From contig NZ_CP020046.1 of the NCBI RefSeq assembly GCF_002028405.1, positions 2,542,001 through 2,606,000 of the forward strand: 64,000 nt of DNA. The letters run 5' to 3'. The translations under genes were made by a program, and so were the position numbers. This DNA comes from Thiomonas intermedia. Its GTDB lineage: Bacteria; Pseudomonadota; Gammaproteobacteria; Burkholderiales; Burkholderiaceae_C. Every line of letters starts with the position of its first letter. The stretch's first letter is position 1. Shown here one piece after another: positions 35,534 to 51,851 of this stretch. The notes beneath the pieces were generated by a model that saw only the letters and a list, made by a program, of their open reading frames with translations, was not told where the DNA came from and did no database searches.

Positions 35534-36889
35534 ATGAAAGAACAACTGATCGCTGCGGGCGATTCTGAGGCGCGCCACCAGGTGGATGTGCTGGTCATCG
35601 GCGGCGGTCCGGCGGGCACGACCGCGGCCACGCAGTTGCAAACACGCGGGTTTAGAGTTGCCTTGCTCGAGAAGGACCACCACCCTCGCTTTCACATCGG
35701 CGAGTCACTGCTGCCGGCCAATCTGCCTCTGCTGGAAAAACTCGGCGTCGCTGATGACGTGAAGGCGATTGCGATGGAGAAATGGGGAGCGGAGTTTGTT
35801 TCTCCGTGGCACGCGCAGGAGACGCAGACGTTTGCCTTTGCCGAAGCCTGGGATAAGTCCATGCCCATGGCCTATCAGGTTCGCCGCTCGGAGTTCGACG
35901 AGATTCTGATGCGCAACACGCGCAGTAAGGGCGTGGACGTCAGAGAAGGCTGCAAAGTGGATGCGGTGGAGTTCCTGCCTGGCGGCGAGGGGGCGATCGT
36001 CTCGGCCACCCACGAGGACGGCCGCCATTCCACGTGGCAAGCGCGCCAGGTTGTCGATGCCTCCGGCAGAGACACCGTGCTGGGAAGCCGCTTCAGGACC
36101 AAGACGCGCAATCCCAGACACAACAGCGCGGCCCTCTACGCCCATTTCAGCGGCGCCCGGCGGCTCGACGGTAAGGCGCAGGGCAATATCAGCATTTTCT
36201 GGTTCGAGCATGGCTGGTTCTGGTTCATTCCCCTGGCCGACGGCACAACCAGCGTAGGTGCCGTGGTCTGGCCGTACTACCTCAAGCGGCGGGACAAGCC
36301 GCTTGAGGCTTTCTTTGCCGATACCCTGGCGATGTCGCCCGCGCTGAGTGCGCGGCTCGCCGATGCCACCCGGGTCTCCGCGGTCGAGGCCACGGGCAAT
36401 TTTTCCTACAGCTGCAGCCAGACGCATGGGCCGAATTACGTGCTGATTGGCGATGCCTTTGCGTTCATCGATCCGGTGTTCTCCTCGGGTGTGATGCTTG
36501 CGATGCAGGGCGGCTTTTTCGCGGCCGACGCCCTGGAGACTTGCCTGCGTCAGCCGGCCAAGGCGAGCCAGGCGCTGGCCCTGTTCGATCGACAGATGCG
36601 TCATGGCCCGCGGGCGTTCTCCTGGTTCATCTACCGGGTCAACCACCCGACCATGCGCGATCTGTTCATGGGGCCACGCAATGTTCTGCGCGTGAAGGAG
36701 GCTCTTCTTTCTGTCCTGGCGGGAGATATTTTTGGCAGGACGCCGATCTGGCCCTCGATTGCCGTGCTGAAGGCGATCTTCTACGCCGCTTCGCTCAAAC
36801 ACCTCGGTCGCACCTTGGCGGCACGCGCGCTGCGCAAGCGCCAGATTCAGGTGCATGATGATCTTCAGACCGAGATGCGTCAGGGCTGA
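35534..36889 (+). CDS. Flavin-dependent oxidoreductase, halogenase-like, of the aryl polyene locus
   Basis: A 451-residue FAD protein. Dinucleotide motif GGGPAG at residues 23-28, HIGESLLP near 54-61, Lys83 in KWGAEF, the second FAD motif DASGRDT near 175-181, and GDAFAFIDPVFSSG near 302-315. Residues 228-233 are WFWFIP, which fits the WxWxIP signature of flavin-dependent halogenases, and Lys83 sits where such enzymes carry the haloamine lysine. Xanthomonadins are brominated aryl polyenes, so halogenation of the pigment head group is plausible. It could instead be a non-halogenating hydroxylase or dehydrogenase. First gene of the plus arm. Confidence 0.75.
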   Translation: MKEQLIAAGDSEARHQVDVLVIGGGPAGTTAATQLQTRGFRVALLEKDHHPRFHIGESLLPANLPLLEKLGVADDVKAIAMEKWGAEFVSPWHAQETQTFAFAEAWDKSMPMAYQVRRSEFDEILMRNTRSKGVDVREGCKVDAVEFLPGGEGAIVSATHEDGRHSTWQARQVVDASGRDTVLGSRFRTKTRNPRHNSAALYAHFSGARRLDGKAQGNISIFWFEHGWFWFIPLADGTTSVGAVVWPYYLKRRDKPLEAFFADTLAMSPALSARLADATRVSAVEATGNFSYSCSQTHGPNYVLIGDAFAFIDPVFSSGVMLAMQGGFFAADALETCLRQPAKASQALALFDRQMRHGPRAFSWFIYRVNHPTMRDLFMGPRNVLRVKEALLSVLAGDIFGRTPIWPSIAVLKAIFYAASLKHLGRTLAARALRKRQIQVHDDLQTEMRQG

Positions 36890-36901
36890 GCCTGTATCCC
36901 C

Positions 36902-37954
36902 ATGCTGCAACTGCACCATCTGTCGGCTGACGGCCTTGCCCAGACCTCGGCCGCCGCACCCTACGCCTGCATGGGTGCGGCATGTTTCGGGGCGGGCGGG
37001 CGCGCCAGCAGCGACGATGCCGCTCTGTGTCTGGCACATGTGCGGGTTGAGCCGCTCGCGGATCAGCCCGAAGTCTGCGAGGCCTGGCTGACTCGCGGGC
37101 CCCTGCAGCACGGACGAGCCGGGCCGATGCGGTGGAGCGGCAATGCCGATCTGGTGTTTGGCGTGGTGGAGATTGCCGAGCATGCCCGGCCCGAGCTGCC
37201 GGATTCCACGCCGCCCCTGCAAGCGGCCGCGCGGGAGGCCTATGCGGCCTTGTTCGGCACGCTGGACGTGCTGGGCTACCCGTATCTGCTGCGAGTCTGG
37301 AACCATGTTCCCGACATCAACGGCACGAGCCACGGCCTGGAACGCTATCGTCTGTTCAACATCGGGCGACAGGATGCCTTCCTGGCACACGGACGCACGG
37401 TCGACGGAGGCAGCGTGCCCGCGGCCAGCGCCTTGGGGGCCGCGACAGGTGCACCGTTGCTGGTGTATGGCATTGCGGCGCGGCAGGCGCCCACGGCAAT
37501 CGAGAACCCCCGCCAGGTCAGCGCCTATGACTACCCGCGGGACTATGGTCCGCGCAGCCCCACGTTTTCGCGGGCCAGTCTGGCGCGTTTGGGCTCGCAG
37601 CATCTGCTCTTCATCTCGGGGACCGCCAGCATCGTTGGCCATCGCACCCTGCATGCGCATGATGTGGCCGAACAGACTCGAGAGACCCTGCGCAACATCG
37701 ACGCTGTACTGAAACAGGCGCATGAACATGGGGCTGCGGGCATCTCTCTGGCTGATCTGCACTTCAAGGTCTATGTACGCCACGGATCGGACTGGCCGGT
37801 GATACGTGCCGAGCTTCGGCGGGCCGTGGGGGCGAATGTGCGCGCCATCGCGCTTCAGGCCGACGTGTGCCGGCAGGACTTGCTGGTGGAAATCGAGGCA
37901 AGCGGCATACGCTGCATGCCCGGGCCGATCTGCCCAGGGAATCGCGATGAATGA
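36902..37954 (+). CDS. Chorismatase, XanB2-like (hydroxybenzoate-forming)
   Basis: A 350-residue member of the FkbO/Hyg5/XanB2 chorismatase family. Recognisable blocks are LRVWNHVPDINGTSHGLERY near residue 130, FNIGRQDAF near 151, AYDYPRDYGPRSPTFSRA near 208 and ISGTASIVGHRT near 237. XanB2 of Xanthomonas cleaves chorismate to 3- and 4-hydroxybenzoate plus pyruvate; 3-hydroxybenzoate is the xanthomonadin starter and 4-hydroxybenzoate feeds ubiquinone. The location in the pigment locus fits supply of the aryl starter. It overlaps the next gene by eight bases. Confidence 0.82.
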   Translation: MLQLHHLSADGLAQTSAAAPYACMGAACFGAGGRASSDDAALCLAHVRVEPLADQPEVCEAWLTRGPLQHGRAGPMRWSGNADLVFGVVEIAEHARPELPDSTPPLQAAAREAYAALFGTLDVLGYPYLLRVWNHVPDINGTSHGLERYRLFNIGRQDAFLAHGRTVDGGSVPAASALGAATGAPLLVYGIAARQAPTAIENPRQVSAYDYPRDYGPRSPTFSRASLARLGSQHLLFISGTASIVGHRTLHAHDVAEQTRETLRNIDAVLKQAHEHGAAGISLADLHFKVYVRHGSDWPVIRAELRRAVGANVRAIALQADVCRQDLLVEIEASGIRCMPGPICPGNRDE

Positions 37955-38753
37955 GGACGTGATGACGCACGAAGCACGCCCACATTCGAGGGTACGCGGC
38001 GTCTGGGACATGTCGCGGGTCTTCTTCGGCCTTGGACTGTTGGGAGGGATGGGGCTGCTGTGGTCCCTGCTGGCCGTGCCGTTGTACTACCTGTTGCCCC
38101 GCAAGACGGGTCTGGTGTTCGGACGCTGGCTGATCCACTCGGCGTTTCGCGTCTATCTGCGCACGCTATCGCTGATCGGCGCCTGCCGCTTCGACCTCGG
38201 CGCACTTGATGAACTGCGCGGCCAGCCAGCCATGATCGTCGCGCCCAATCATCCCTCGCTGATCGATGCGGTGCTGGTGATCTCGCGCCTGCCGGGGTTG
38301 TCCTGCATCATGAAATCCAGCATCGTCGACAACCCGTCGCTGGGTGCGGGTGCAAGGCTGGCACGGTACATCCGCAACGATGCGCTGCGCAGCATGATTC
38401 ATCTGGCCGTGGCCGACTTGCGTGCCGGGCATCACTTGCTGCTCTTTCCGGAAGGCACGCGAACGGCGCGACGACCGATCGGCCCCCTGCGTGGCAGCGT
38501 GGCGCTCATCGCCAAGCAGGCGCGCGTGCCGGTTCAGACGGTGTTCATCGAGACCGACTCGCCCTTTCTCGCCAAGGGCTGGCCATTGAGGCGTCGTCCG
38601 CAACTGCCTATTACCTATCGCATCAGACTGGGGCGTCGTTTCGACCCGCCGCACGATGCACAGGCTTTCCTGGCCGAACTCGATGCCTACTTTCGCGAAG
38701 GCCTGGCCGGGGCCATGCTGCCCGAGCCCATGCCCGAGCCATCGGATGAGTGA
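37947..38753 (+). CDS. PlsC-type 1-acylglycerol-3-phosphate acyltransferase, pigment locus
   Basis: A 268-residue membrane-bound acyltransferase. An N-terminal hydrophobic segment spans about residues 25-50. The catalytic HX4D motif is His102-Asp107 in NHPSLID, and the FPEGTRT phosphate-binding motif has Glu169. Enzymes of this type in aryl polyene loci are thought to place the polyene acyl chain on a glycerol or sugar lipid anchor. The ATG at 37947 lies eight bases inside the chorismatase end, and its own stop overlaps the next gene by eight bases, so the genes are likely co-translated. Confidence 0.82.
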   Translation: MNEDVMTHEARPHSRVRGVWDMSRVFFGLGLLGGMGLLWSLLAVPLYYLLPRKTGLVFGRWLIHSAFRVYLRTLSLIGACRFDLGALDELRGQPAMIVAPNHPSLIDAVLVISRLPGLSCIMKSSIVDNPSLGAGARLARYIRNDALRSMIHLAVADLRAGHHLLLFPEGTRTARRPIGPLRGSVALIAKQARVPVQTVFIETDSPFLAKGWPLRRRPQLPITYRIRLGRRFDPPHDAQAFLAELDAYFREGLAGAMLPEPMPEPSDE

Positions 38754-39543
38754 TTGCACTCTCCTTTATGGCGGGCCGACGCCGAGTGCAAGTCATCTCG
38801 TGCTCATTCCCAGCTACAACCCCGGCGCCAAGGTCTACGAGACCGTGCGTGCGGCCCGGGCGCAATGGGCGCCGGTCTGGGTCGTGGTCGATGGCAGCAC
38901 GGACGGCACGGCCCAGGGGCTTCGCGAACTGGCGGCGGGTGATCCGCAGTTGCGCGTGTTCGTGCTCCCGACCAATCACGGCAAGGGTGCCGCCGTGCTG
39001 CATGGGTTGGAGGCCGCAGCCGCAGCCGGATTCAGTCACGCGCTCACGATGGATTCCGATGGGCAGCATCCCGCCGAACGCATTCCCGAATTCATGGCCG
39101 CGTCGCAGCGACAGCCTCCGGCGATGGTGCTGGGTGTGCCGGTCTTCGACGCCAGCGCACCCAATCTTCGGGTTCAGGGGCGCAAGATTTCCAACGGTTG
39201 GGCCAACCTCGAAACGCTCTGGGCGGGTATCGGCGATTCGCTGTACGGCTTTCGGATCTACCCCATTGCAGAGCTGCGCGCGGTGATGCGTCGCCAGCAC
39301 TGGATGCGTCGGTTCGACTTCGATCCCGAAGCCGTGGTGCGTCTGAGTTGGCGCGGTGTGCCCGCCATCAACCTGCCCGCCCCGGTGCGCTACCTGCGGG
39401 CCGACGAGGGCGGTGTGTCGCACTTCAACTACTTGCGCGACAACCTGCTGTTGACCTGGATGCACACCCGTCTGTTTCTCGGCTTTGTGATGCGTCTGCC
39501 GTTGTTGGTGGCGCGCCGGATGAGGCACCGGGTCTCAGGCTGA
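38746..39543 (+). CDS. Family 2 glycosyltransferase, pigment locus
   Basis: A 265-residue GT-A glycosyltransferase. IPSYNPG near residue 21, the VVDGSTDGT sugar-nucleotide site near 46 and the metal-binding TMDSDGQHP near 100-108 are visible; no N-terminal membrane anchor, but a hydrophobic C-terminus. In E. coli-type clusters a glycosyltransferase is fused to an acyltransferase; here the two are separate neighbours. It probably glycosylates the polyene lipid or its anchor. Its 3' end overlaps the convergent antiporter gene by nine bases. Confidence 0.82.
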   Translation: MSDCTLLYGGPTPSASHLVLIPSYNPGAKVYETVRAARAQWAPVWVVVDGSTDGTAQGLRELAAGDPQLRVFVLPTNHGKGAAVLHGLEAAAAAGFSHALTMDSDGQHPAERIPEFMAASQRQPPAMVLGVPVFDASAPNLRVQGRKISNGWANLETLWAGIGDSLYGFRIYPIAELRAVMRRQHWMRRFDFDPEAVVRLSWRGVPAINLPAPVRYLRADEGGVSHFNYLRDNLLLTWMHTRLFLGFVMRLPLLVARRMRHRVSG

Positions 39544-40848
39544 TCCGTGATCGGTGCCGATCGTCTGCGCCGGGCGCGACTGAAGCGCCGCGTGCGGAAG
39601 CCAGAGTCGCAGCAACGGAGCGGTGATCACGGTGCTGAAAATCGCCATCAGCACCAGCATGGTGAACACGTTGTGCGACAGTACGCCGAGGTCATAGCCC
39701 ACGTTGATGACGATGAGCTCCATGAGCGCGCGGGTGTTCATCAACGCACCCATCACGCCCGATTGCGCACGACTCATGCCGCATCGGCGTGCCGCCAGGT
39801 AGGCGCCGCCGAACTTGCCCAAGGTGGCCAATGCGATGAGCAGCAAACACCAGCCCCAGAGCGGCGCGCTGGACAGTCCCCCCAGATCGGTGCGCAGTCC
39901 GGTATAGGTGAAGAAAATGGGTAGGAAAAACACCAGGACGAAAGGACTGATCTGAGTCTTCCAGGCCTGCACAAGGCGGGCCTGATCGTGCAGGATGACG
40001 CCCATCATGAAGCCGCCGAAGATGGCGAAGATGCCTATTTGATAGGTCGTCATGCCAGAGACGAAGATGGCGGCCAGCACCACGCCCAGCAAATTGGGCG
40101 ACAGATCGTCGCCGTCCGACTGCAAGCGGCGGATGATTCTGCGCATCAGCGGGCGAACCGCGAGAACCCAGATGAGCGCAAACCCGACGACCAGGGCTAC
40201 CTTGAGGCCGAACGCCGCGGGCTGGAACCCACTCACCGCCAGCATGGTGACCAGGGCCAGCAGCAGCCAGCCCACCACGTCGTTGAAAGCTGCCGCGCTG
40301 ATGGCGATGACCCCTAGTGGCGTGCGATGCAGGTCGAAGTCCACGAGGATGCGTCCGAGAATGGGCAGGGCCGTGATGGAAAACGCCGTCGCGACGAACA
40401 GGGCGCTGATGCCGAAACGGGCGTCAGGTGACAGCGTTGACGCGCTGGCGGCGCCGAACCCCAGACCGAGCGCGAAAGGGGCCGTCATGCTGGCCACGCC
40501 GATCCAAAGGACCGCGCGACGATTCTCTCGATGGCCGAGGTGAGCAAAGTCGAACTCCAGGCCGATCTGGAACATCAGCAGAATCAGCCCGATCTGTGAC
40601 AGGATCTGCAACGGCGTTCCGGATGTGGAGTGAAAGACGAAGGCAAACAGGTTCGGGGCCAGCAGGCCCAGGAGCGAGGGCCCCAACAGGATGCCGATCA
40701 CGATTTCACCGACCGCGGCCGTCTGCCCCAAACGCAAGGCCACCACGCCACCAACCCGACCCGCAAGCACGATGACCGTGAGTTGCAGCAGGGTGAAGAA
40801 CAGCAGGGTTTCGGTCGCGTGGACGGGCAAAGGCGTGTGGGTACTCAT
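39535..40848 (-). CDS. Cation:proton antiporter, CPA2 family
   Basis: A 437-residue membrane protein with about 12-13 helices. It shows CPA2 features: LGQTAAVGEIVIGILLGPSLL near residue 41, LLMFQIGLEFDF near 89 and NDVVGWLL near 188 with the ion-binding Asp. No RCK/TrkA-N domain follows, so it is a bare transport domain. It starts 25 bases after fabG and may be the last gene of the pigment operon. A link to pigment function, for example coping with the proton gradient used by the exporter, is only inferred. Confidence 0.82.
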   Translation of the reverse strand: MSTHTPLPVHATETLLFFTLLQLTVIVLAGRVGGVVALRLGQTAAVGEIVIGILLGPSLLGLLAPNLFAFVFHSTSGTPLQILSQIGLILLMFQIGLEFDFAHLGHRENRRAVLWIGVASMTAPFALGLGFGAASASTLSPDARFGISALFVATAFSITALPILGRILVDFDLHRTPLGVIAISAAAFNDVVGWLLLALVTMLAVSGFQPAAFGLKVALVVGFALIWVLAVRPLMRRIIRRLQSDGDDLSPNLLGVVLAAIFVSGMTTYQIGIFAIFGGFMMGVILHDQARLVQAWKTQISPFVLVFFLPIFFTYTGLRTDLGGLSSAPLWGWCLLLIALATLGKFGGAYLAARRCGMSRAQSGVMGALMNTRALMELIVINVGYDLGVLSHNVFTMLVLMAIFSTVITAPLLRLWLPHAALQSRPAQTIGTDHGSA

Positions 40849-40873: not shown

Positions 40874-41614
40874 TCAGATCATCCCGCCATTGATGGAGAT
40901 GATCTGTCCGCTGATATAGGCAGAGCGCTCGGAAGCGAGGAATCCCACAAGGTCGGCAACCTCCTCGGGTTGTCCGGCGCGCTTCATCGGTACCAGACGG
41001 GCCACAGCCTCGGCATTGAAATGGTCGGCGCTCATCGGGGTGGCGATGATGCCTGGGGCGACGGCATTCACCGTGATGCCCCGGCTGGCCACCTCCAGCG
41101 CCAGGGATTTGGTGGCCGCATGCAGCGCCCCCTTTGCGGCGGCATAGTTCACCTGGCCACGATTGCCCGCGATGGCCGCCACCGAGGTGATGTTGATGAT
41201 CCGGCCCCAGCGGGTTCGGATCATGGGCAACAGCAACGGCTGCGTCAGGTGAAAAAAGCCATGGAGATTGACGTCGATGACCCGTTGCCACTGATCGGCG
41301 CGCATGCCGGGAAACACGGCGTCGTCATGCAGGCCGGCATTGTTGACCAGGACTTGCACTGGCCCGTCGGCCAACATCGTTTCGACGGCCGTGGCCGTGG
41401 CCGTGGCGTCGGTGACATCGAATGCCACCGCCTGTGCGGCACAACCCCGACCGCGCAGTTCCGTCGCAAGTGCCTGGGCGCGGGCAAGTCCGCTGTTGGC
41501 GTGGACGATGACGGCATAGCCGTCGGCCGCGAGGCGACGGCAGATGGCGGCGCCGATGCCGCCGCTGCCGCCGGTGACCAGGGCGCGGCGTGTGACAGGG
41601 GTCGAGTCAGTCAT
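40874..41614 (-). CDS. 3-oxoacyl-ACP reductase, FabG-like (ketoreductase of the polyene PKS)
   Basis: A 246-residue short-chain dehydrogenase. The cofactor motif TGGSGGIG spans residues 14-21, NNAG 91-94, and the catalytic triad is Ser144, Tyr157, Lys161 (NYAAAK). It should reduce each beta-keto group with NADPH before dehydration, since a polyene needs reduction and dehydration in every cycle. The ATG at 41614 overlaps the upstream dehydratase stop by eight bases; the longer open frame is rejected. Confidence 0.88.
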   Translation of the reverse strand: MTDSTPVTRRALVTGGSGGIGAAICRRLAADGYAVIVHANSGLARAQALATELRGRGCAAQAVAFDVTDATATATAVETMLADGPVQVLVNNAGLHDDAVFPGMRADQWQRVIDVNLHGFFHLTQPLLLPMIRTRWGRIINITSVAAIAGNRGQVNYAAAKGALHAATKSLALEVASRGITVNAVAPGIIATPMSADHFNAEAVARLVPMKRAGQPEEVADLVGFLASERSAYISGQIISINGGMI

Positions 41615-42080
41615 GGAGGAACGATGCGTTTGTTGGGACGGTTGTGCCGCGGTCGAGGAGGACCGAGGCGCGGCCTTCGAGCAGGCAGCGATCCGCCCCG
41701 CAGACCTTGAATTGATAGAGCAACAGACCGAGATCGCCACTGATGCGCTCCGCCTCGACGACAAGATCGTGGGGGATGTCATCGAGCCGGTTCACATGGA
41801 GATCGACCGCACGCACGCTGATCAGCATGCCAGGCCGGGGCGGCGCATCCTGATCGCTGACCAGCGCCCCATGGATGGCCATGGCTTGTGCGGCATATTC
41901 GATGCCGCAGGCCGCACCCAGCCGGCCGTGCTGACACAAAGGATGATCCGGAAGGCGATGGTTGATGGCGACGCATGCGATGCGCTCTCCATCCCAGGTG
42001 AGAACGCTTTCGAGCAGGCACATCCGACCCTGATGCGGGATGTGAGCGGCGATCCAGGTGTGATCGAGGGCGGCGACCAT
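41607..42080 (-). CDS. Hotdog-fold 3-hydroxyacyl-ACP dehydratase, ApeP-like
   Basis: A 157-residue hotdog protein. The IPHQGRMCLLESV string near residues 14-26 carries the family His, and the central helix ACGIEYAAQAMAIHG near 57-71 carries the acidic partner, which resembles the dehydratase ApeP of E. coli-type aryl polyene systems. It would remove water from hydroxyacyl-ACP to form double bonds. A second, FabZ-like dehydratase is encoded further up the operon (49127-49462), so the two probably work as a pair, as ApeI and ApeP do. Confidence 0.78.
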   Translation of the reverse strand: MVAALDHTWIAAHIPHQGRMCLLESVLTWDGERIACVAINHRLPDHPLCQHGRLGAACGIEYAAQAMAIHGALVSDQDAPPRPGMLISVRAVDLHVNRLDDIPHDLVVEAERISGDLGLLLYQFKVCGADRCLLEGRASVLLDRGTTVPTNASFLHD

Positions 42081-42094
42081 GGCGTGGGGGCGGG

Positions 42095-42913
42095 TCAGCT
42101 TGGATCGATCGTCACGGCGAGGCCCTGACCAGGCAGGTGATCGAGTACCACCGTGCCTGATTCGCCCCGACTCAACGCCTCAAGCAAGGGCAAGGCACGG
42201 GCCGCGGGAATCGAGCGGCGCAGCGCGTCGAGGTCTGCATTCGTCAGGGTGTTGGCGGGGTCGTCCGTGAAGGGAGCTGCGGCCCGGATGCTGAGCCGGG
42301 CCAGGCTGCGGTCGCTGCGTTTGGGAGTCAAGGCCAGCGCCAGGCCGAAGCTGTCCGGAATGGGGCGAACGCTGTGCAGCGGCTCGGGGTAGCCCGTGTC
42401 ATAGGCCAGCAGCAGGACGGGCTGCTGCAGCACGGCGACCTGAACCAGTGCTTCCAGCAGGCCGACGCCGAAGCTGGCATCGAGTGCGCACAACACGGTC
42501 GAGGGCGCCATCGCCCCGGTGGCGATGCCCCAGTAGCCGGAGGCTGCGTTGTGTACCGAATTGTGGAACCGTGTGGGCGAGATCATGCGATCACTGCAGG
42601 CGAGTGCCGCACAGATCTCATGGCAGTTGAGGCCGTCACTTCCCGATGAGGTGAACACCGTGGCCAGATGAGCTGCTTGCATCCCGGCGGCAGCCACAGC
42701 CTCCAGACCGGTCGCGAGGGTGAGCTTGACGGCCGCGGTGGCGCGCCTTCGCTCGGCCGCAGGCAGGGTCTGGGGGGCGGGCAGCTGCGTGCGGCACGAC
42801 AGATATATCGCTTCGCCGCGCAGGATCGATCGGGTCTGGGGCCAATTCTGCAGGCCCGGCCCCAGCAGGCCGATGCCGTCCAGCGAGGCGGTCAGACGGG
42901 TCATGACGCTCAT
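42095..42913 (-). CDS. Short ketosynthase-like protein (chain-length-factor type)
   Basis: A 272-residue protein with only the N-terminal thiolase-type half of a ketosynthase (beta-ketoacyl synthase N-terminal-2 family). Where active ketosynthases have the nucleophilic Cys, it reads HNAASG with Ala123-Ala124, so it is probably non-catalytic and pairs with the full ketosynthase encoded directly upstream, as the chain-length factor ApeC does. Start at ATG 42913, two bases from the upstream stop; a second ATG lies at 42904. The region upstream in frame overlaps that gene and is rejected. Confidence 0.78.
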   Translation of the reverse strand: MSVMTRLTASLDGIGLLGPGLQNWPQTRSILRGEAIYLSCRTQLPAPQTLPAAERRRATAAVKLTLATGLEAVAAAGMQAAHLATVFTSSGSDGLNCHEICAALACSDRMISPTRFHNSVHNAASGYWGIATGAMAPSTVLCALDASFGVGLLEALVQVAVLQQPVLLLAYDTGYPEPLHSVRPIPDSFGLALALTPKRSDRSLARLSIRAAAPFTDDPANTLTNADLDALRRSIPAARALPLLEALSRGESGTVVLDHLPGQGLAVTIDPS

Positions 42914-42915
42914 CG

Positions 42916-44139
42916 CTAACCTCCTCGTGCCAGAACCAGGCTGCAATTGGTTCCGCCAAAACCAAAGGAGTTGCTCATCACATGCCGTGGCGCCGTCTCG
43001 ACGGGCTGCAACAGATAGTTCAGCGGGGTGTCGCGCGTGAAGGCTGGGTCGAGCATGTCGGCTCCCGTGCCTCCCGGCAGGAAGCCGTGACGCAACGCCA
43101 ACATGCAGAAGACCGCTTCCACACCGCCCGCTGCACCCAGGGTGTGGCCGGTCGCGCCCTTGGTCGAACTGCAGGGCGTGGTGGGGCCGAACAGGGACGC
43201 CACGGCCCGGCCTTCCGCACGGTCATTGCTGGGGGTGGCGGTGCCGTGTAGGTTGATGTAGTCGATGGCCGAGGGCTGCAGTCCCGCCTGGGCAAGCGCA
43301 GCCTGCATGGCCAGACGCGCGCCCAGTCCCTCGGGGTGGGGCGAGGACATGTGATGGGCGTCGCTGGACTCGCCTGCGCCCAGCAGAAGCACGGCCTCGT
43401 CGGCGGCTTGTGCTGGCGCGGCTTCGAGCAGCACAAACGCGGCGGCTTCGCCAATGGAAAGACCCATTCGCCGGGCATCGAAGGGGCGACAGGGGTCGGG
43501 GGCCAGCAGTTCCAGGGCGTTGAACCCGTACAACGTGGTCAGGCACAGACTGTCCACGCCGCCCACCACGGCGCAGTCGATCATGTTCGCCGCAATCATG
43601 CGCTGCGCGGTCGCGAACACTTTGGCACTGGACGAGCAGGCGGACGAGACCACCATGGCGGGGCCACGAAGCCCGAACCGGGCGCTGACATACGCGGCGA
43701 GGGAGTAGGTGTTGTGCGTCTGTGCGTAGTGCAGATCGGTGGTGAATGCGCCTTGCGCGTCGCGCTCCCGGTAGGCCAGTTCGGTTTGCAGAATGCCCGA
43801 AGTGCTGGTGCCGAGGAAGACGCCGACCCGGTGGCTGCCGTGGCGGGCCGCAGCGGCCTGCACGGCTGCGGCAAAGCCGTCCTGCTGCAAGGCGAGTTCG
43901 GCCAGACGGTTGTTGCGGCAGTCGTAGTCGGCCCATTGCCGCGGCAGACGCACCTCGTCCACGCCCGCGACTTCGCCGATCCATGTGGGCAGGTCGACGG
44001 TTTCGAAGCGGCAAGGCGCAAGCCCGCTGCTGCCCTGGCGCAAGGCCAGCCGATGAAGCTCCAGGCCCGTACCCAGGCAGCTGGTGACGGTGGCGGCGGC
44101 GAACTGCAATGGAGGCGAGGGAGAGGCTGGGGGTTGCAT
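42916..44139 (-). CDS. Beta-ketoacyl-ACP synthase (polyene ketosynthase)
   Basis: A 407-residue condensing enzyme with an intact Cys-His-His site: Cys168 in SSACSSSAK, His298 in NLHGTATPSND and His332 in KGATGHTLGAAGG, with Lys327. The C-terminal SNSFGFGGTNCSLVL signature is present. It extends the aryl starter with malonyl-ACP units, most likely as a heterodimer with the short ketosynthase-like protein. A 60-base gap separates it from the deacetylase gene, the largest break inside the minus arm. Confidence 0.9.
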   Translation of the reverse strand: MQPPASPSPPLQFAAATVTSCLGTGLELHRLALRQGSSGLAPCRFETVDLPTWIGEVAGVDEVRLPRQWADYDCRNNRLAELALQQDGFAAAVQAAAARHGSHRVGVFLGTSTSGILQTELAYRERDAQGAFTTDLHYAQTHNTYSLAAYVSARFGLRGPAMVVSSACSSSAKVFATAQRMIAANMIDCAVVGGVDSLCLTTLYGFNALELLAPDPCRPFDARRMGLSIGEAAAFVLLEAAPAQAADEAVLLLGAGESSDAHHMSSPHPEGLGARLAMQAALAQAGLQPSAIDYINLHGTATPSNDRAEGRAVASLFGPTTPCSSTKGATGHTLGAAGGVEAVFCMLALRHGFLPGGTGADMLDPAFTRDTPLNYLLQPVETAPRHVMSNSFGFGGTNCSLVLARGG

Positions 44140-44199: not shown

Positions 44200-45084
44200 T
44201 CACGGCAACACGGCAGGTCGGGATCGGGCGTTCTGGTCTGCCGGGCGATCGGCGCACGCAGCCTTTAAGGTCACGGGTTGAAGCCCGGCTTGGCGCAGAG
44301 CCTGCAGCAATTCGGGAAGAACCTCCAGGATGACGGGCCGGCCCTGCGCCGTGCGCGCGGCATGGCCATCGTGAAGCAGCAGGATGTCGCCCGCCTTCAA
44401 ATGACGCAAGAGCCGCCGCAGCACCACGGCCGGGCGGGTTTCGCGGGTATCGAAGCCGCGGCGTGTCCAGCTCGTTAGCCGGAGGTCGTGTTGGGCCAGT
44501 ACGGGGGAAAGAAACAGGTTGCGCAGCCCAGCGGGCGCGCGGAAGAAGCGTGGTCTCACGCCCGTGCAGGTCTGGATCATTTGCTGAGCCTGCTGCAGTT
44601 CCCGGGCGAAGCCGCGCGGCCCGAGCAGCGAAAAGTGGTGACGGTGATGTGCGCTGTGATTCTCGATCGCATGGCCGCGCCGTGCGATGGCCCGGCTCAG
44701 CGCCGGATGGGCCTGCACGCGCTCGCCGATGCAGAAAAAGGTGGCACGCACATCGTGGCGATCGAGCAAGTCGAGGACTTCGGGCGTGACTTCCGGGTCC
44801 GGCCCGTCGTCTATGGTCAGCGCCACTTCACCGCGCAGAGCTGCCTCTCTGGGCAGTCGGCTGAGATTGGCGCCCAGGGCGTGACAGCGCGGCCACAGAC
44901 CCGCAAGCGTCAGCACCAGATGATTGAGCGCGAGCAGGGCGAGAAGCCAGGGCCACAGGCCAGGCCGCCAGGCGATGGCGATCAGTGCGCCCAGATGCAG
45001 GAGCACCGAGGCCGTCACCAGGGGCGGTGGGCGCCAGGCCGGCACAGGCGGCAGGGAGGGGGCGGCATTGTCGAACATGGTCAT
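44200..45084 (-). CDS. Polysaccharide deacetylase (NodB domain) with membrane anchor
   Basis: A 294-residue protein. Two hydrophobic segments lie at about residues 22-38 and 43-62. The NodB domain has TIDDGPDP (Asp92-Asp93), the metal-binding HSAHH (His143, His147) and the RAPAGLRN motif near 180, so it should be a metal-dependent carbohydrate esterase. It is uncommon in described aryl polyene clusters and hints that an N-acetylated sugar carried by the lipid anchor is deacetylated. ATGA overlap with the exporter gene (start 45084; ATG at 45078 also possible). Confidence 0.82.
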   Translation of the reverse strand: MTMFDNAAPSLPPVPAWRPPPLVTASVLLHLGALIAIAWRPGLWPWLLALLALNHLVLTLAGLWPRCHALGANLSRLPREAALRGEVALTIDDGPDPEVTPEVLDLLDRHDVRATFFCIGERVQAHPALSRAIARRGHAIENHSAHHRHHFSLLGPRGFARELQQAQQMIQTCTGVRPRFFRAPAGLRNLFLSPVLAQHDLRLTSWTRRGFDTRETRPAVVLRRLLRHLKAGDILLLHDGHAARTAQGRPVILEVLPELLQALRQAGLQPVTLKAACADRPADQNARSRPAVLP

Positions 45085-47498
45085 GGCGGATTGTGCCCTG
45101 CCTCTGACGGTCGATCAGGCGCCGACAGCATGGCCGAGAACAACAGGGCCAGCAGGGCCCCGGGGGCTACGGTCGCACCCAGGGCCTGCAGCACCGGGAC
45201 ACCCGACAGCAATAAGGGGCCAAAACCCGCCACGGTCGTCAGATTGGCGAACAGCAACGACGCCAGAGTGGTCGGCTCCGGTCCGTCTCCCTCCTGCTGG
45301 CTCCGGTTGAAAAACAAGGCGTAGTTCGAACCGACTGCGACGATCAGCATCATGCCCACCAGATGCAGCAGGGTGAGTTGCACGCCGGCCAGCAGCAGCC
45401 CCGCCACCACGACCAGCACGGCGGCCAACAACGGGGCCAGGACGCGGGCGGTGCGCCGCGGCGAGCGCAGGGCGATCAGCAGCAAGAGGGCAATGGCTGC
45501 GATGCCGGCCAGCGAGAGCCAGGCCGCCGTATGCAGATATCCGTCATACAGGCGCGTGCTGGCCGCCCCCAGATTGATGACTTGCGCGCCAGTGCCGGCG
45601 AGCGCGGCCTGCACGCGGGTTTCGTCAATGGAACCGTTGACGGGCGCGCGCAGCGGCATCAGGGCCACCCAGCCGCCCGTCGGCGGATGCAGCAGCAGTC
45701 CATCGAGTGCCATGGCGAACGAGGTGTGCGCCAGATCGGCCCGGGTGAGCAGTGGCAGATGCCGGGCAGCCGCCACGTCTCGCACGAAGGGGGCCAGCAC
45801 CGAGGGTTGGACCGGCAGGTTCTTCAGGGCGGCATCCAGCCGGCCCTGAAGCTGTGGCGCATCGGGCAAGGCCTGCTGCCGGGCTCGCTGCGCAGCCTGA
45901 CTCGGCAAATAGCGGGCGGGACTGTCGAAGCCCGCAATCACACCCTGCGTCTGAAGCTCTTGCAGATGCGGGCTGATGCGCTCGGCCGCGGCCAGCGCGG
46001 CGTCGAGATGGGGCGCATGAACGGTGACCAGATCCACGGCGTCGGGCGCGCCGAGCTGTGAACGCAACTCGGCGTTGAGCGCCAGCGATGAGGCGCTGAT
46101 CGGGCTGAGCGCGGATAGACGCGTATTCCAGACGTCATCGCGATGACGTGCGATGACGATGATCGCAGCCAAGGCCAGCAGGACCACCGCCCAGCGTGCG
46201 CGTCGCAGATGCGCCACTCCCTGACGGAGCGCCTGTCCGGTGCGGCGAAGGTCGCGCACGGCGAAGTTCGCGGGCAGAAGCAGCGGCAGCACGAAGCGGG
46301 TGACCAGGGCTGCGGCCAGCAGCCCGGCAATGGAGTAGGCCCCGAGTTGCGCGAGGCCCGGGAAATCGGACAACAACAACGTGGCGAAACCGACGACGGA
46401 GGTGAGCATGCCCAGGCGGATGGTCGGCCAGAAGCGCTGCAGCCAGTCGCGGCGGGCCGTGGCGTTCTGCTGGCCCGACTGAACAAACAAATAGATGGAG
46501 TAATCCACAGCCTCGCCGATGAGCGTGGTGCCGAACCCGAGAGTGATGCCCTGGACCACGCCGAACCCCAGGCTGACGGCGGTGATGCCGGCGACCACGC
46601 CGGTAAGCACCGGAAGCAGCCCCAGCAGCAACACGGATATGGATCGATAGACCAAGAGCAGCAGGACAACGATGAGAACGCCCCCGATCCAAGAGACCCG
46701 CTCGACCGCGCCCCTGATGGTGCTGCGTGATTGCACGGCGAAAACGGCGGTGCCGCTGATCACCAACGTAGTGGGACGAACCGAGGTCGGGCCGTGGGTC
46801 GATGCCGAAGAGTCGGCCCTCGTTTGCTGTGGGGTGAGTTGTCGCTGCGCTTCGGCAAAGGCGTCTTGCACCGCCGTGAGCGCCGCCTGCTGGCCGTCGG
46901 TATCAGTCCCGGCGGCACGAGTCTGCAACAGCAGCAGGGCGCGAGACATGTCCTTGGCGGCCCAGACGCCATCCACCTTGTGAGGCTGCGTACCGTTGGC
47001 CATAGTGCCAAGCAGCTGAAGCAGAGTGCCCGTGGGGTCTGCGGGGAAAAGGGCCTTGAGGCTGCCGCCCATGGGCGAGGCAAGCTGATCGATGCTGCTG
47101 GAGATGGCACGGTGCAGTCCGGCTTCGGAGAAGGCCTGCGGCGTGGTCTCGGGGCTGAGCAGATAGCGGTATTGAAACAGCAGGGTCTCGTCGGGCTGCG
47201 CAGGGTTCGACTCGCCGTTGTTCACGGAGACGAAAGCCGGGTTGTGGCGTAACCGGGCGGCGAGTGCCCGCGAGAGCGCGGCACGGGTGCTTGCGTCACC
47301 GCCGTCGATGCCCACCAGCAGAAGGCGTGAAATCAGCCCGTCGCGCAATTGATCGACCAGCACCTGTTCCTGCGCCGTGGGCTTGCTCGGAAGAAAGGCC
47401 GACATGTCTGCCGTGTAGCGGCTTTGCACGATGACGGCAAGCCCGGCTGCCCATGCCGCCAGCCAGCACAGCAGCGGGATGAAACGACGCGGCATCAT
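45081..47498 (-). CDS. MMPL/RND-family exporter, pigment locus
   Basis: An 805-residue membrane protein with the RND layout: one helix at residues 6-26, a periplasmic loop to about 245, five helices to about 410, then the mirrored second half. SRYTADMSAFLPSKP near 26-40 matches aryl polyene and hopanoid-type MMPL exporters. Such proteins are expected to move the finished polyene lipid from the inner membrane toward the outer membrane. A LolA-like partner is encoded just upstream. No clear Shine-Dalgarno; two adjacent ATGs (47498, 47495). Confidence 0.85.
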   Translation of the reverse strand: MMPRRFIPLLCWLAAWAAGLAVIVQSRYTADMSAFLPSKPTAQEQVLVDQLRDGLISRLLLVGIDGGDASTRAALSRALAARLRHNPAFVSVNNGESNPAQPDETLLFQYRYLLSPETTPQAFSEAGLHRAISSSIDQLASPMGGSLKALFPADPTGTLLQLLGTMANGTQPHKVDGVWAAKDMSRALLLLQTRAAGTDTDGQQAALTAVQDAFAEAQRQLTPQQTRADSSASTHGPTSVRPTTLVISGTAVFAVQSRSTIRGAVERVSWIGGVLIVVLLLLVYRSISVLLLGLLPVLTGVVAGITAVSLGFGVVQGITLGFGTTLIGEAVDYSIYLFVQSGQQNATARRDWLQRFWPTIRLGMLTSVVGFATLLLSDFPGLAQLGAYSIAGLLAAALVTRFVLPLLLPANFAVRDLRRTGQALRQGVAHLRRARWAVVLLALAAIIVIARHRDDVWNTRLSALSPISASSLALNAELRSQLGAPDAVDLVTVHAPHLDAALAAAERISPHLQELQTQGVIAGFDSPARYLPSQAAQRARQQALPDAPQLQGRLDAALKNLPVQPSVLAPFVRDVAAARHLPLLTRADLAHTSFAMALDGLLLHPPTGGWVALMPLRAPVNGSIDETRVQAALAGTGAQVINLGAASTRLYDGYLHTAAWLSLAGIAAIALLLLIALRSPRRTARVLAPLLAAVLVVVAGLLLAGVQLTLLHLVGMMLIVAVGSNYALFFNRSQQEGDGPEPTTLASLLFANLTTVAGFGPLLLSGVPVLQALGATVAPGALLALLFSAMLSAPDRPSEAGHNPP

Positions 47499-47532: not shown

Positions 47533-48150
47533 TCATGGCACAGGCTGCTCGCGCAGGGTCATCAGCGAGCTGTCGCCGTCAGCCTGCTGCACGGCGATGG
47601 TCTGCACCTGCCCCTGTCGGCCTGCGATCTGGATGCTGCGCACACGGGTGCGCGCCTTCGCATCGACCGGCACCAAGGTGAGTTTCCAGTGAGTCGCGGG
47701 ACCCTTAAGCGTGGTGGTGTAGTCGCGTTGCAGTGCCCTGCGGTCGCCATTGAGTGTCGCGCGGATGCTGTTGATCAATACGGCGATGTCGGGATGGTCT
47801 CGCAGGTCGAACTGATGGCTGCGCCCGTCCATTTCGACCGTCACTTGATTGGCCTGCAGGATCAAGGTCTGGGCCTTGGGCTTGAGGGTGCGCATTTCAA
47901 GAAAGTCAGGTGCAGCAAAACGCAGCTCGCCCGACGATTCGACCGGGGCATCGAGCATGGCAAGCGTCTTGGTCTCCACGAAGCTGGCGCGGTTGGCCGG
48001 ATGGCTGGCCAGGGCTTGCATCAGGGTATCGAGCGTCCAGTCCGCAGCCATCGACCAGGACGATAGGCACAGCAGGCTGCTCATCAACGCGGCGCGAAGA
48101 AGCGCACCTGGCGCAAAGCGGTTTGAGCGTGAAAGGGGGCGTTTCGTCAT
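47533..48150 (-). CDS. LolA-like outer-membrane carrier protein, pigment locus
   Basis: A 205-residue exported protein with a signal peptide (about 1-35, ending SSWSMA-A). The sequence after it (WTLDTLMQALASHPANRASFVETKTLAML) and the LRFAAPDFLEMRTLKP segment near 75 match the LolA-like proteins of aryl polyene loci, which share the half-barrel fold that carries lipids through the periplasm. It overlaps the acyltransferase gene (ATGA) and sits before the exporter gene, which suggests that the two proteins hand over the polyene lipid. Confidence 0.8.
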   Translation of the reverse strand: MTKRPLSRSNRFAPGALLRAALMSSLLCLSSWSMAADWTLDTLMQALASHPANRASFVETKTLAMLDAPVESSGELRFAAPDFLEMRTLKPKAQTLILQANQVTVEMDGRSHQFDLRDHPDIAVLINSIRATLNGDRRALQRDYTTTLKGPATHWKLTLVPVDAKARTRVRSIQIAGRQGQVQTIAVQQADGDSSLMTLREQPVP

Positions 48151-49130
48151 GGCTCGGCGGGGCCGGCGGCTTCTGCCTCGGGGCCCCTCCAGAAATCATA
48201 GAAATTGAACCAGTTGTAGGGGGCCTCGCGGCAACGGTCTTCGAGACGCTGCACGTACGTTTGCAGGGCGCGATCGATGGCGTCGGAGCGTTCGCTGCGG
48301 TCGTGTTCCGAGAAATCCGCCAATCGCTCGAAGTGCACCTCATAACGGTTGCCACCTCGATAGATGCCGAACATCAGCACGACGGGCCGCTTGAGGAGAG
48401 CGGCAATACGCATGGGGCCTCGGGGCCAGGGCGCCGCCTGTCCCAAGAAAGGAAGGGTGGTTGTGCTGTCGTCATGCAGGGAACGGTCGGCCAGGATGCC
48501 CACCATGCCGCCCGCGTCGAGCCGAGCCTGAAGGCGAAGCATGGCATCGAAACGCCCGAGGGGAATGATGTCCTGCGCGGCGGCGGGGTTGATGGCATGC
48601 AGGGCAGCGTTGATCTTGCGGGCGTTGTCGGGGTACATCAACAGCGACACCGGCGGTGCGGCAACGTGCTTTGCGATGGCGCGCAGCACTTCGAAGCTGC
48701 CGAAATGGGCTCCCATGAGGAAAGCGCCTCTTCCTTGGGAGAGTACCGACTCCATCACCTCGGCGCCGTGGACCTTCAGGTCGAACAGGTCCCGACGGTC
48801 ATTGAGCAGGTAGACGCGATCGTGGATGGTCGAGGCGAAGCTTAGTACATGCCGATAGCCGTCGGCCCAGTTGGCATCACGTCCCAGGACGCGTTTGAGG
48901 TACTGGCGCGAGGCGCGCCGGGCACCCGGCGCGAAAAGCACGAAATACACGGCGATGCCCCTGAGCACGACGCGCGCAATGCGGCGTCCGAGGCGCAGTG
49001 AAATCCAGGTCATCAGACGCAGCATGTGGCGGTTGCTTCGCTCGTGTTCCTGCATCCAGGAGGTATCGCCCCCAGGGTTGCGGGCATCCTCTTGCGAAGG
49101 GACCATGGGGGATGCGCCCGGCTCGTTCAT
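48147..49130 (-). CDS. LpxL/HtrB-type acyltransferase, pigment locus
   Basis: A 327-residue lysophospholipid acyltransferase of the lipid A late-acyltransferase family. The catalytic HX4E motif is His142-Glu147 (AHFGSFE), followed by a second conserved block (MVGILADRS near 209). One hydrophobic segment lies near residues 48-67. In aryl polyene loci this type of enzyme is thought to transfer the ACP-bound polyene or a fatty acyl chain to the anchor. A long upstream open frame covers the dehydratase gene in another frame and is rejected; the ATG at 49130 overlaps the dehydratase stop. Confidence 0.84.
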   Translation of the reverse strand: MNEPGASPMVPSQEDARNPGGDTSWMQEHERSNRHMLRLMTWISLRLGRRIARVVLRGIAVYFVLFAPGARRASRQYLKRVLGRDANWADGYRHVLSFASTIHDRVYLLNDRRDLFDLKVHGAEVMESVLSQGRGAFLMGAHFGSFEVLRAIAKHVAAPPVSLLMYPDNARKINAALHAINPAAAQDIIPLGRFDAMLRLQARLDAGGMVGILADRSLHDDSTTTLPFLGQAAPWPRGPMRIAALLKRPVVLMFGIYRGGNRYEVHFERLADFSEHDRSERSDAIDRALQTYVQRLEDRCREAPYNWFNFYDFWRGPEAEAAGPAEP

Positions 49131-49462
49131 GGACTGGCGACGCGCCGTGGGGGCTCGGTCATGCTGTGCACCTGGCCGGAGGCGACCAGACGCGCGCCAT
49201 CGACCGTGTGCAGGCGAAAATGCCACTGCCCGGTGGCATCGGTGCTGTGGCTGAGCTGAAGGGATTGCCCCGGTTCGACCGGGCTGATGAACTTGGTGTT
49301 GACGATGCGGCAATGACCTTCGTCCAGGCCCCGGACGAGGCAGAGCCGCTGCAGCACCGCATCGAGGAGCAGGACGCCAGGCACGATGGGGCGCCCCGGG
49401 AAGTGTCCCGGGAAGGCGGGGTGATCCGCGCCGTAGGTGGGCAGAATCTCGGTGCAGGTCAT
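49127..49462 (-). CDS. FabZ-like hotdog dehydratase (ApeI-like)
   Basis: A 111-residue single hotdog domain. HPAFPGHFPGRPIVPGVLLL (residues 14-33) is the FabZ/FabA-like active-site segment, with His20 as the likely catalytic base. It should dehydrate hydroxyacyl-ACP intermediates together with the second dehydratase encoded at 41607-42080. It was found by reading the frame inside a longer open frame that continues upstream into the AMP-ligase gene. Both ends overlap neighbours (ATGA junctions), so it is certainly part of the operon. Confidence 0.85.
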   Translation of the reverse strand: MTCTEILPTYGADHPAFPGHFPGRPIVPGVLLLDAVLQRLCLVRGLDEGHCRIVNTKFISPVEPGQSLQLSHSTDATGQWHFRLHTVDGARLVASGQVHSMTEPPRRVASP

Positions 49463-50844
49463 GGCTGAGCGGTCGTCCTGTGAGCGAACTCCGTCGCCAG
49501 GGCCTGCAGTACGGTGCGGGGCAGCTTGCCAGTCGGGTTGCGAGGCAGAGCATCCATCATGATCAGCGGCCGCGGCAGGAATGTCGGCTCGATGCGCAGG
49601 CGCAGCGCGGCCATCACTTCGTCTTGCGGCAGGCCGGGCGCCACGACAAAGGCCATGAGTCGCTGGACGCCTGCGGCAGTGTCGTCGTCGGGCATGTGAA
49701 ACGCGCCGTCCTTCACGCCGGGTATGTCGAGCAGCTGGTGATTGAGATGGGCGATCGAGCTGCGCTTGCCGGCGATGTTGACCATATCGGCATGGCGTCC
49801 CAGCAGCCGGAACCGCTGGGCATCGCGCTGGTCGATGTGGTCGCTCAGTGCAGTCGGCTCGGACAGATGGCCGCCAAGCGCCCAGATCTGACCTTGGGCC
49901 GTTTCCTGAAGGGTCACCTCGGGGAAAAGCGTCCAGAGTTCCGTTCTGGCGGTGCGACGCGTGGCGATCTGTCCGGTTTCGGTTGAGCCGTAGATTTCCA
50001 GCAGGGGCGCGCCGAGATGTTGTTCCAGTGCGGTGGCCAGTGGACTGTCCAGCGGTGCGGTGGCACAGAGGACCATGGCGATGGGCGGCAGACTGACCCC
50101 GGAATCCATCAGGGCGCGCAGATGCACCGGGGTGGACACCAGCAGGCGCGGCGAGGGCACATCGGCCAGGGCGGTTGCGATGTCTGCCGGGTAGAACGGA
50201 TGGGCGGCGCTGAGCACCGCGCCGCCCTGCAGCGCCAGCAGCAGGGTGGACTCGAAGCCGTACATGTGCTGCGGTGGCACCGTGCCTACGATCTGCAGCG
50301 GACCACATTGCGCTTCTTCGCGGATTCTTGTCGCGCCGGCCTGAACGCAGTGCGACAGCGCCCCCCAGGTCTTGGCATGGGCCTGCGGCGCGCCGGTGGA
50401 ACCTGAAGTAAATACCTTGGCGACGCACTGATCCACCGGCATCGTCGGCATCGCCGGCATCGCCGGCATCGCCGGCATCGCCGGCATCGCGGCACCGGCG
50501 CCAGCGATGTGCTCGGGAAAACGCATGAACGGCAGATCGAGCCCTCCGGGCGCGTCGCCGAGGTGAAACAGGTCGGGGGCGAGCTCACGCAGTTGCGCCA
50601 CCGTATCGGGCGTACGTGTCGAGGGCAGCAGACTGACGCGCCCACTGCTGACGGCCGCAGCAAAACCGACACAAAATTCGTAGCGGTCTGAACAGGTATT
50701 GAGAACGTGCCTCCCTTCGGGCATGGCGGCGGCGAGCTGCTCGACTTCGCACAGAAACTCTCTGACTCGCACAGGGCGCCCCTGACGCCAGGCGAAAAGG
50801 TCATCGGGCGATTTGAAGTCGGCGAGCAGGGGCAGGGTGGGCAT
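49459..50844 (-). CDS. Aryl-ACP/AMP-dependent ligase of the polyene locus
   Basis: A 461-residue ANL-superfamily adenylating enzyme. The P-loop FTSGSTGAPQ covers residues 145-154, YGSTETGQ lies near 284 and the C-terminal NPTGKLPR with the catalytic Lys is near 439. It should activate the hydroxybenzoate starter with ATP and load it on the ACP. It is shorter than stand-alone acyl-CoA ligases, like ApeH. Just before the P-loop the protein carries a run of Ala-Met-Pro tripeptides (residues 119-136), encoded by a 9-bp tandem repeat. Confidence 0.85.
   Translation of the reverse strand: MPTLPLLADFKSPDDLFAWRQGRPVRVREFLCEVEQLAAAMPEGRHVLNTCSDRYEFCVGFAAAVSSGRVSLLPSTRTPDTVAQLRELAPDLFHLGDAPGGLDLPFMRFPEHIAGAGAAMPAMPAMPAMPAMPTMPVDQCVAKVFTSGSTGAPQAHAKTWGALSHCVQAGATRIREEAQCGPLQIVGTVPPQHMYGFESTLLLALQGGAVLSAAHPFYPADIATALADVPSPRLLVSTPVHLRALMDSGVSLPPIAMVLCATAPLDSPLATALEQHLGAPLLEIYGSTETGQIATRRTARTELWTLFPEVTLQETAQGQIWALGGHLSEPTALSDHIDQRDAQRFRLLGRHADMVNIAGKRSSIAHLNHQLLDIPGVKDGAFHMPDDDTAAGVQRLMAFVVAPGLPQDEVMAALRLRIEPTFLPRPLIMMDALPRNPTGKLPRTVLQALATEFAHRTTAQP
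50437..50490. repeat. 9-bp tandem repeat, six copies, inside the AMP-ligase gene
   Basis: Six head-to-tail copies of CGGCATCGC; the first copy has one change (T at 50445). On the coding strand it encodes repeated Ala-Met-Pro. Being a multiple of three, gain or loss of copies would keep the frame, altering only a linker before the ATP-binding loop. Confidence 0.95.
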
Positions 50845-51561: not shown

Positions 51562-51851
51562 TACGCCCCTCTCATGGCAGCAATGTGATCGGCGAGATGC
51601 CGCAGCGAACTGAAGATGCGCTGATTGTCGGCGTCGTCTGCCCGCAATTGCACGCCGAATCGTTTGGAAATCACCAAGGCGATCTCAAGGATGTCGATGG
51701 AGTCCAACCCCAGCCCTTCGCCATAGATCGGAGCGTCCGGATCGATCCGGTCGGCTTCGACGTCGAGGCCAAGAGAGGTCACGATGAGCTGCGAAATCTC
51801 GTGGATGAAGGCAGGATCGGCGGATTGTGAGGGGAAATCAGACACGGACAT
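51561..51851 (-). CDS. Acyl carrier protein of the polyene locus
   Basis: A 96-residue ACP. The phosphopantetheine attachment site is Ser51 in GLDSIDILE, followed by the usual helix II and a hydrophobic C-terminal helix. It would carry the aryl starter and growing polyene. The E. coli-type system has two ACPs; I find only this one in the window. First gene of the 13-gene minus arm, preceded by a TATACT box. Confidence 0.92.
   Translation of the reverse strand: MSVSDFPSQSADPAFIHEISQLIVTSLGLDVEADRIDPDAPIYGEGLGLDSIDILEIALVISKRFGVQLRADDADNQRIFSSLRHLADHIAAMRGA

Follow-up and report, generated by a model that had tools for sequence, protein, structure and literature searches.

A halogenase-like flavoprotein encoded within an aryl-polyene pigment gene cluster of Thiomonas intermedia

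The window, that is, the whole 64-kb stretch of Thiomonas intermedia DNA that was analysed, was found by translation to contain P0001 as an intact open reading frame of 451 residues, open throughout. The P0001 gene stands at the head of 17 genes (positions 35534-51851), which are arranged as four genes on the plus strand followed by a convergent block that runs from the antiporter to the acyl carrier protein (Table 1). Pfam families were found for 15 of the 17 genes, with the ApeP-like dehydratase falling below its cut-off; the other two, the membrane protein and the acyl carrier protein, were placed by position or by eye. As evident from the presence of a ketosynthase and chain-length factor (CLF), reductase, dehydratases, AMP ligase, acyl carrier protein, LolA, exporter, acyltransferases and chorismatase, the 17 genes make up an aryl-polyene cluster of xanthomonadin/arcuflavin type, and P0001 is an integral part of it. 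The first-pass annotation had described a halogenase-type enzyme in a pigment locus with a chorismatase directly downstream. The 17-gene cluster agrees with the first point, as do the motifs and fold described below, and the second was confirmed: the chorismatase-family gene begins 12 bp downstream of P0001, and its product matched the FkbO/Hyg5-like chorismatase N-terminal domain (PF21168) with 111.8 bits against a cut-off of 27, while remaining under the cut-off of NCBIfam TIGR04444 (231.9 versus 325). No methyltransferase was present among the 15 Pfam-scanned genes, though one may lie elsewhere; the ring hydroxyl may thus remain unmethylated, a state that would promote electrophilic halogenation. 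Separately, the AMP ligase gene was seen to carry an in-frame Met-Pro-Ala repeat run, AMPAMPAMPAMPAMPTMP, at approximately residues 115-135.

Table 1. Genes of the aryl-polyene cluster in the 64-kb window and the basis of each assignment.
Feature	Position	Strand	Basis
P0001, flavin-dependent halogenase-like protein, 451 aa	35534..36889	+	motifs, Pfam, alignment, tree, model
Chorismatase, FkbO/Hyg5-like; XanB2/ArcB equivalent by position and family	36902..37954	+	PF21168, synteny
Acyltransferase (ArcD-like)	37947..38753	+	PF01553, synteny
Glycosyltransferase family 2 (ArcE-like), start approximate	38740..39543	+	PF00535, synteny
Cation:proton antiporter (ArcG-like)	39535..40848	-	PF00999
3-oxoacyl-ACP reductase, FabG-type (ArcH-like), start approximate	40874..41614	-	NF004200 over cut-off
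ApeP-like dehydratase (ArcI-like)	41607..42080	-	PF22817 E 5e-4, below cut-off; synteny
Chain-length-factor-like ketosynthase (ArcJ-like), start approximate	42095..42946	-	PF13723
Beta-ketoacyl-ACP synthase (ArcK-like)	42916..44139	-	NF006618 over cut-off
Polysaccharide deacetylase (ArcN-like)	44200..45084	-	PF01522
MMPL/RND-type exporter (ArcP-like)	45081..47498	-	PF03176
LolA-like carrier (ArcQ-like)	47533..48150	-	PF19574
Lipid-A-type acyltransferase (ArcR-like), start approximate	48147..49103	-	PF03279
Second FabA-like dehydratase (ArcS-like), start approximate	49127..49555	-	PF07977
AMP-dependent ligase (ArcT-like, aryl-acid activation)	49459..50844	-	PF00501
Cluster membrane protein	50866..51561	-	ORF; recurs in related clusters
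Acyl carrier protein	51561..51851	-	DSIDILE serine site by eye; recurs in related clusters

Inspection of the P0001 sequence revealed the FAD motif GxGxxG as GGGPAG (residues 23-28), the WxWxIP motif as WFWFIP (residues 228-233) and the third halogenase motif FxxPxxSxG, which the available text of PMC7336383 defines as Fx.Px.Sx.G, as FIDPVFSSG (residues 311-319). A six-frame search of the window gave a single match to the pattern W.W.IP, at position 36215, inside the P0001 gene. Upon alignment, the Lys83 column contained lysine in all six halogenase chains, the counterparts being K76 in CndH, K78 in FasV (8zop), K75 in Mpy16, K76 in PltA, K74 in RadH and K77 in Bmp2, the last represented by the triple mutant 5bul. 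This comparison of sequences supports Lys83 as the equivalent of the halogenase catalytic lysine, and it bears out the WFWFIP motif and the lysine position that had first drawn attention to the gene. The size of P0001 lies within the range of approximately 400-450 residues of PltA, Mpy16, ChlB4 and Bmp2, with no extra domain.

The family searches placed P0001 nearest to halogenases. Its best Pfam match was Trp_halogenase (113.8 bits), and the hydroxylase-type family FAD_binding_3 was likewise over its cut-off (75.7 bits). Among the best 25 of 75 NCBIfam models, none reached its cut-off; CmlS ranked first (NF033113, an equivalog model, 194.2 versus 900), followed by the QhpG-type monooxygenase (NF049967, 171.1 versus 240) and the geranylgeranyl reductase GG-red-SF (TIGR02032, 116.2 versus 158.8). 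The solved structures nearest in sequence were halogenases, namely CndH (3.8e-59) and 8zop (FasV; 5.9e-59), and then Mpy16, ChlB4, PltA and RadH. A 12-sequence profile widened the gap between halogenases and reductases, giving 286 bits for CndH and 78.5 bits for digeranylgeranylglycerophospholipid reductase.

We then compared P0001 with 177 locus proteins and seven structure chains in an alignment of 185 rows, which was restricted to matches of at least 60 bits and 330-620 residues. Rows at least 40% identical to P0001 were taken as clade A (n = 139, a number that counts the window gene twice, as P0001 and L001, and includes near-duplicates). Nine signature residues (K83, W228, W230, I232, P233, F311, P314, S317 and G319) were invariant in 139 of 139 clade-A rows and were also found in all six halogenase chains; given this invariance across the aligned sequences, the halogenase-motif match of P0001 is no chance event. 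Of 12 distant control loci, two (L019 and L020) gave no readable match; WxWxIP and FxxPxxSxG were absent from all 10 others, although two of these 10, L266 and L267, may encode proteins other than flavoproteins. Outside clade A, the full signature was present in 39 of 46 rows, comprising the six known halogenase chains, 3nix and 32 locus proteins with no assigned function. Since only six of these 39 are proven halogenases, the signature alone is no proof of halogenation. The seven rows with an incomplete signature were L136 and L154, which had lost the WxWxIP proline, L137 and L138, which had lost the signature serine, and L155, L190 and L193. In L136 (9031-10350) and L154 (8761-10080), the IP of WxWxIP reads IV and the lysine and FxxPxxSxG are retained; L154 sits amid aryl-polyene-type genes, the surroundings of L136 gave weak matches to exporters and membrane proteins, and the two proteins provide a natural test of WxWxIP function.

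A quick maximum-likelihood tree was calculated from 62 of the 185 rows, picked by hand to span the clades; L162 and L163 were missing from this set, probably because they were dropped as copies of other rows. Clade A formed one side of a branch with an SH-aLRT value of 94. Clade A, the 3nix-like clade B and the known halogenases formed a fan with no settled order, in which Bmp2, RadH and FasV had long branches. A geranylgeranyl-reductase-like enzyme, or a reductase that saturates the polyene, could be misread as a halogenase, and P0001 does gain 116 bits from the GG-red-SF model. That score is below the model's cut-off, however, and the geranylgeranyl-reductase-like rows L155 and L190, in which the nine signature sites are occupied by T,Y,W,F,P,F,P,G,G, branched off with a support of 100. 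A reductase would also be expected to oppose polyene making. We therefore rejected a geranylgeranyl-reductase origin on the model score, the signature residues and the tree, and regard the reductase reading as highly improbable. Placement inside such a clade, which the first-pass annotation had named as the outcome that would speak against a halogenase, was not seen in the alignment or the tree.

A model of P0001, built from the window protein and 30 homologues, had a mean pLDDT of 85.9, with only 63 for residues 311-320, which contain the third motif. Foldseek matches to this model were re-examined with VIA-align 2. The highest Z-scores were those of FasV (42.3), 3nix (42.1), Bmp2 (41.1), ChlB4 (41.0), PltA (40.5), Mpy16 (40.3), RadH (38.5) and CndH (37.8), such that halogenases occupied eight of the nine top rows (seven proteins, with Bmp2 twice; Z 37.8-42.3). 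The top hydroxylase reached 34.3 and the p-hydroxybenzoate hydroxylases approximately 33. The hydroxylase comparison, on which the original idea also depended, thus left the top hydroxylase below these eight halogenase-type rows, which include all the variant-B structures among the matches seen except CmlS. The Z-score of CmlS, 34.1, was no higher than those of the hydroxylases, and therefore the fold alone cannot tell the two chemistries apart. The predicted fold points to a halogenase, short of proof of chemistry. Fold and quick tree together point to a grouping of P0001 with the variant-B flavin-dependent halogenases, apart from the geranylgeranyl-reductase-like proteins.

The same data bear on a flavin monooxygenase, a hydroxylase or epoxidase on a halogenase scaffold, that would introduce oxygen into the aryl or polyene chain, or into an intermediate of pigment assembly. 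Hydroxylases of the p-hydroxybenzoate type share the fold of P0001 (Z of approximately 33-34), FAD_binding_3 passes its cut-off, and the QhpG model, from a flavin-dependent monooxygenase family, gives 171 bits, though under its cut-off of 240. Such an enzyme would not be expected to keep the three halogenase motifs and the lysine invariant over clade A, and we consider this alternative unlikely.

In a sample of 368 genomes from the class, its own genome excluded, 34 had a close homologue of P0001 (43-67% identity), with clade A defined in this survey by an E-value of 6.3e-107 or better and an identity of at least 43%. The best 80 of 578 relatives in the genome collection included proteins from Acidithiobacillus, Polaromonas, Thiobacillus, Methylococcus and Dechloromonas, and none of these 80 came from Xanthomonas. 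Plasmid records with homologues were found for Caballeronia, Azospirillum, Variovorax and Roseomonas. In a set of 60 genomes that included the own genome, the clade-A gene and the cluster CLF were each present in 12; they occurred together in 11, and each occurred alone in one, the clade-A gene in a draft of 320 contigs (G010) and the CLF, 39% identical, in G057. This near all-or-none co-occurrence indicates that the clade-A gene belongs to the cluster. In another cluster (L140), we observed two distinct halogenase-like genes together with a chorismatase, acyl carrier protein and AMP ligase, as described for Xanthomonas.

The chorismatase had suggested the hydroxyphenyl head as the substrate. 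The adjacency itself was common: at 79 usable loci of 80, the next downstream gene was a chorismatase at 47, an acyltransferase at 22, a glycosyltransferase at five and an opposite-strand antiporter at one, with no gene at one and a contig end at three. As a rule that fixes the substrate, however, the neighbour was rejected, since 29 of the 79 loci had another neighbour or none. At the genome level, the association was nevertheless real (Fisher p 2e-15): both genes were present in 26 of the 368 genomes and neither in 294, while eight had the clade-A gene alone and 40 had a chorismatase alone; a chorismatase match was thus absent from eight of the 34 clade-A genomes. Of the 60 genomes, 11 had a chorismatase; in G027 it was separated from the clade-A gene by approximately 470 kb, and in G017 the two were on different contigs. 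Given these neighbours and positions, the substrate cannot depend on an adjacent chorismatase. Two UbiC (chorismate lyase, PF04345) matches over the cut-off were present in the own genome outside the window, at 1610922-1611386 and 1510226-1510690, and 4-hydroxybenzoate should therefore be on hand even without the chorismatase.

Taken together, the observed family, motifs, fold, cluster membership and co-occurrence lead us to the view that P0001 is, on balance, probably a variant-B halogenase of the CndH/FasV/PltA branch that tailors a xanthomonadin-like pigment, its halogenation being a prediction. In the family mechanism, as outlined in the available text of PMC10696468, hydroperoxyflavin yields HOX, which passes to a lysine-positioned substrate site, and WxWxIP is proposed to prevent hydroxylation; HOX is described in that of PMC7336383 as travelling approximately 10 Å to the substrate site. 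The P0001 sequence holds nothing at odds with this mechanism, from which we infer its flavin chemistry and the role of Lys83. FADH2 from a separate reductase would react with O2 to give C4a-hydroperoxyflavin, which would oxidise halide to HOX, while the WxWxIP wall would keep the organic substrate off the flavin. HOX would then be handed to Lys83, which would assist halogenation at an activated carbon, in either the aryl end or the polyene. A flavin reductase of the PF01613 family is a frequent halogenase partner. No PF01613 match was found in the own genome (100% complete), whereas 13 of 14 control genomes had one, and the FADH2 would therefore have to come from a reductase of another kind. 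Our guess is that the substrate would be bound to the acyl carrier protein of the cluster, since P0001 is close to Bmp2, PltA and Mpy16 in size and fold and is surrounded by a carrier-based cluster, and that bromide would be the likelier halide. PltA and Mpy16 act on carrier-bound substrates. We found no clade-A member with measured activity.

A P0001-type gene is already known. In the available text of PMC3949708 (2014), the arc cluster of Azoarcus sp. BH72 has arcA, annotated as a 'halogenase', beside the chorismatase gene arcB, followed by arcD (acyltransferase), arcE (glycosyltransferase), arcG (antiporter), arcH (reductase), arcI (dehydratase) and arcJ/arcK (synthases). The window cluster shows the same gene order as Table 1 of that paper, and ArcA (azo3921) is likened to P0001 by annotation and gene order. 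According to the same text, the arc cluster differs in being divided between two loci and in having the further genes arcC (MipA), arcF and arcM (a methyltransferase). Its product, arcuflavin, is described there as C41H52O4, a halogen-free aryl-heptaene ester from cells grown in LB with 0.5% NaCl, with a polyene acid of C22H22O3 and a polyene fragment of m/z 317.2. By formula arithmetic, the acid fits methoxyphenyl-heptaenoic acid and the fragment fits C22H21O2 (computed, 317.154), with neither halogen nor extra oxygen. Because arcuflavin is halogen-free despite the NaCl, chlorination by P0001 is unlikely. The gene disruptions given in that text are of arcK and arcT only, with arcA neither disrupted nor assayed, and non-brominated pigments of the arcuflavin group are stated to occur in Xanthomonas too. 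The family reading of P0001 is well supported, while the claim of pigment halogenation faces one published result against it.

The halogen-free pigment lends some weight to the monooxygenase, but the polyene acid carries no extra oxygen either, such that hydroxylation leaves no more trace than halogenation. It would also fit a conserved halogenase-like protein with a role other than halogenation of the final product, such as halogenation that is transient or cryptic, a step of redox chemistry or desaturation, or the scavenging of oxidants close to the pigment: arcuflavin has no halogen and no hydroxylation other than that of its starter, and even so the gene accompanies the cluster almost without exception. 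Against such a role stand the invariant halogenase signature and the aryl polyenes made by Lysobacter with no halogenase gene and by E. coli with no flavoprotein. Two 20-kb stretches (L225 and L226) likewise contained aryl-polyene clusters and no clade-A match, so the enzyme is dispensable for chain assembly as such. We consider this role quite unlikely. Returning to the halogenase, P0001 may brominate the pigment or act conditionally; the closest studied pigment is halogen-free. Tentatively, and with more doubt than confidence, clade A could be a large unrecognised family of aryl-polyene brominases active only when bromide is present; many yellow pigments of beta- and gammaproteobacteria would then, like those of Xanthomonas and Pseudoalteromonas, carry bromine under some conditions, which would have been missed because laboratory media lacked bromide and chloride was not accepted.

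Aryl polyenes rank with the most common pigments of bacteria, and one large branch of their clusters is accompanied by a halogenase-like gene. The halogenase signature is invariant, yet the published pigment is free of halogen. Chlorinated flexirubins are made by Bacteroidetes. If pigments of such clusters are brominated when bromide is supplied, aryl-polyene bromination, known from Xanthomonas and Pseudoalteromonas, would reach many environmental bacteria; if they are not, three motifs and a lysine would not predict halogenation.

Comparison with other pigment systems revealed both likenesses and differences. According to the available text of PMC3691225, halogenase genes adjoin the conserved ketosynthase pair in selected clusters, Lysobacter enzymogenes and Xylella have no halogenase gene and the Lysobacter pigment is non-brominated; the E. 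coli cluster of 18 genes has no flavoprotein in that of PMC8253772. 'Halogenase' genes of xanthomonadin-like clusters outside the xanthomonads have thus been in print since 2013-2014 (PMC3691225, PMC3949708). In Xanthomonas, where the pigments are described as carrying 0-2 Br (PMC3691225, PMC3838355), the putative reductase/halogenase XanB1 adjoins the chorismatase XanB2 and the cluster has a further halogenase, as set out in the available text of PMC3838355; XanB1 is likened to P0001 by this description, both lying beside a chorismatase in an aryl-polyene cluster. The bromoalterochromides of Pseudoalteromonas have a brominated aryl-polyene chain (PMC7551054, PMC5577590, PMC7333567, each in its available text). 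Deletion of altN is reported to strip the bromine from these hydroxyphenyl-polyene lipopeptides and to leave non-brominated analogues (PMC5577590, PMC7333567). Flavin-dependent bromination of an aryl-polyene chain therefore has a genetic precedent, and the suggestion that a halogenated aryl polyene would be new outside the xanthomonads did not hold. AltN, likened to P0001 by description, is encoded in a cluster that makes an aryl polyene on an acyl carrier protein, but its product is a polyene-peptide hybrid from coumarate, with no chorismatase named in the available accounts.

Among the solved structures, that of CndH (3e1t), the chondrochloren halogenase, was 36-37% identical to P0001, with WFWYIP, K76 and FVDPVFSSG, although it belongs to another pathway and lies outside clade A. 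FasV was the nearest in fold, with 31% identity, the lysine and both motifs, but it also comes from another pathway and sits on its long branch outside clade A. PltA, Mpy16 and Bmp2 share the lysine and motifs with P0001, whereas their substrates are of the pyrrole type, bound to the acyl carrier protein in the case of Bmp2 (PMC5577590, available text), unlike the expected aryl polyene. The Cytophaga hutchinsonii flavoprotein 3nix retains all the motifs and belongs to clade B (L014, L015, L135, L143, L144, L145, L147, L152, L153, L156, L158 and 3nix; L014 and L015 were viewed in wider context as L149 and L150). Clade B is set apart from clade A with a support of 100, and its members, with the full signature, recur beside aryl-polyene clusters of another type.
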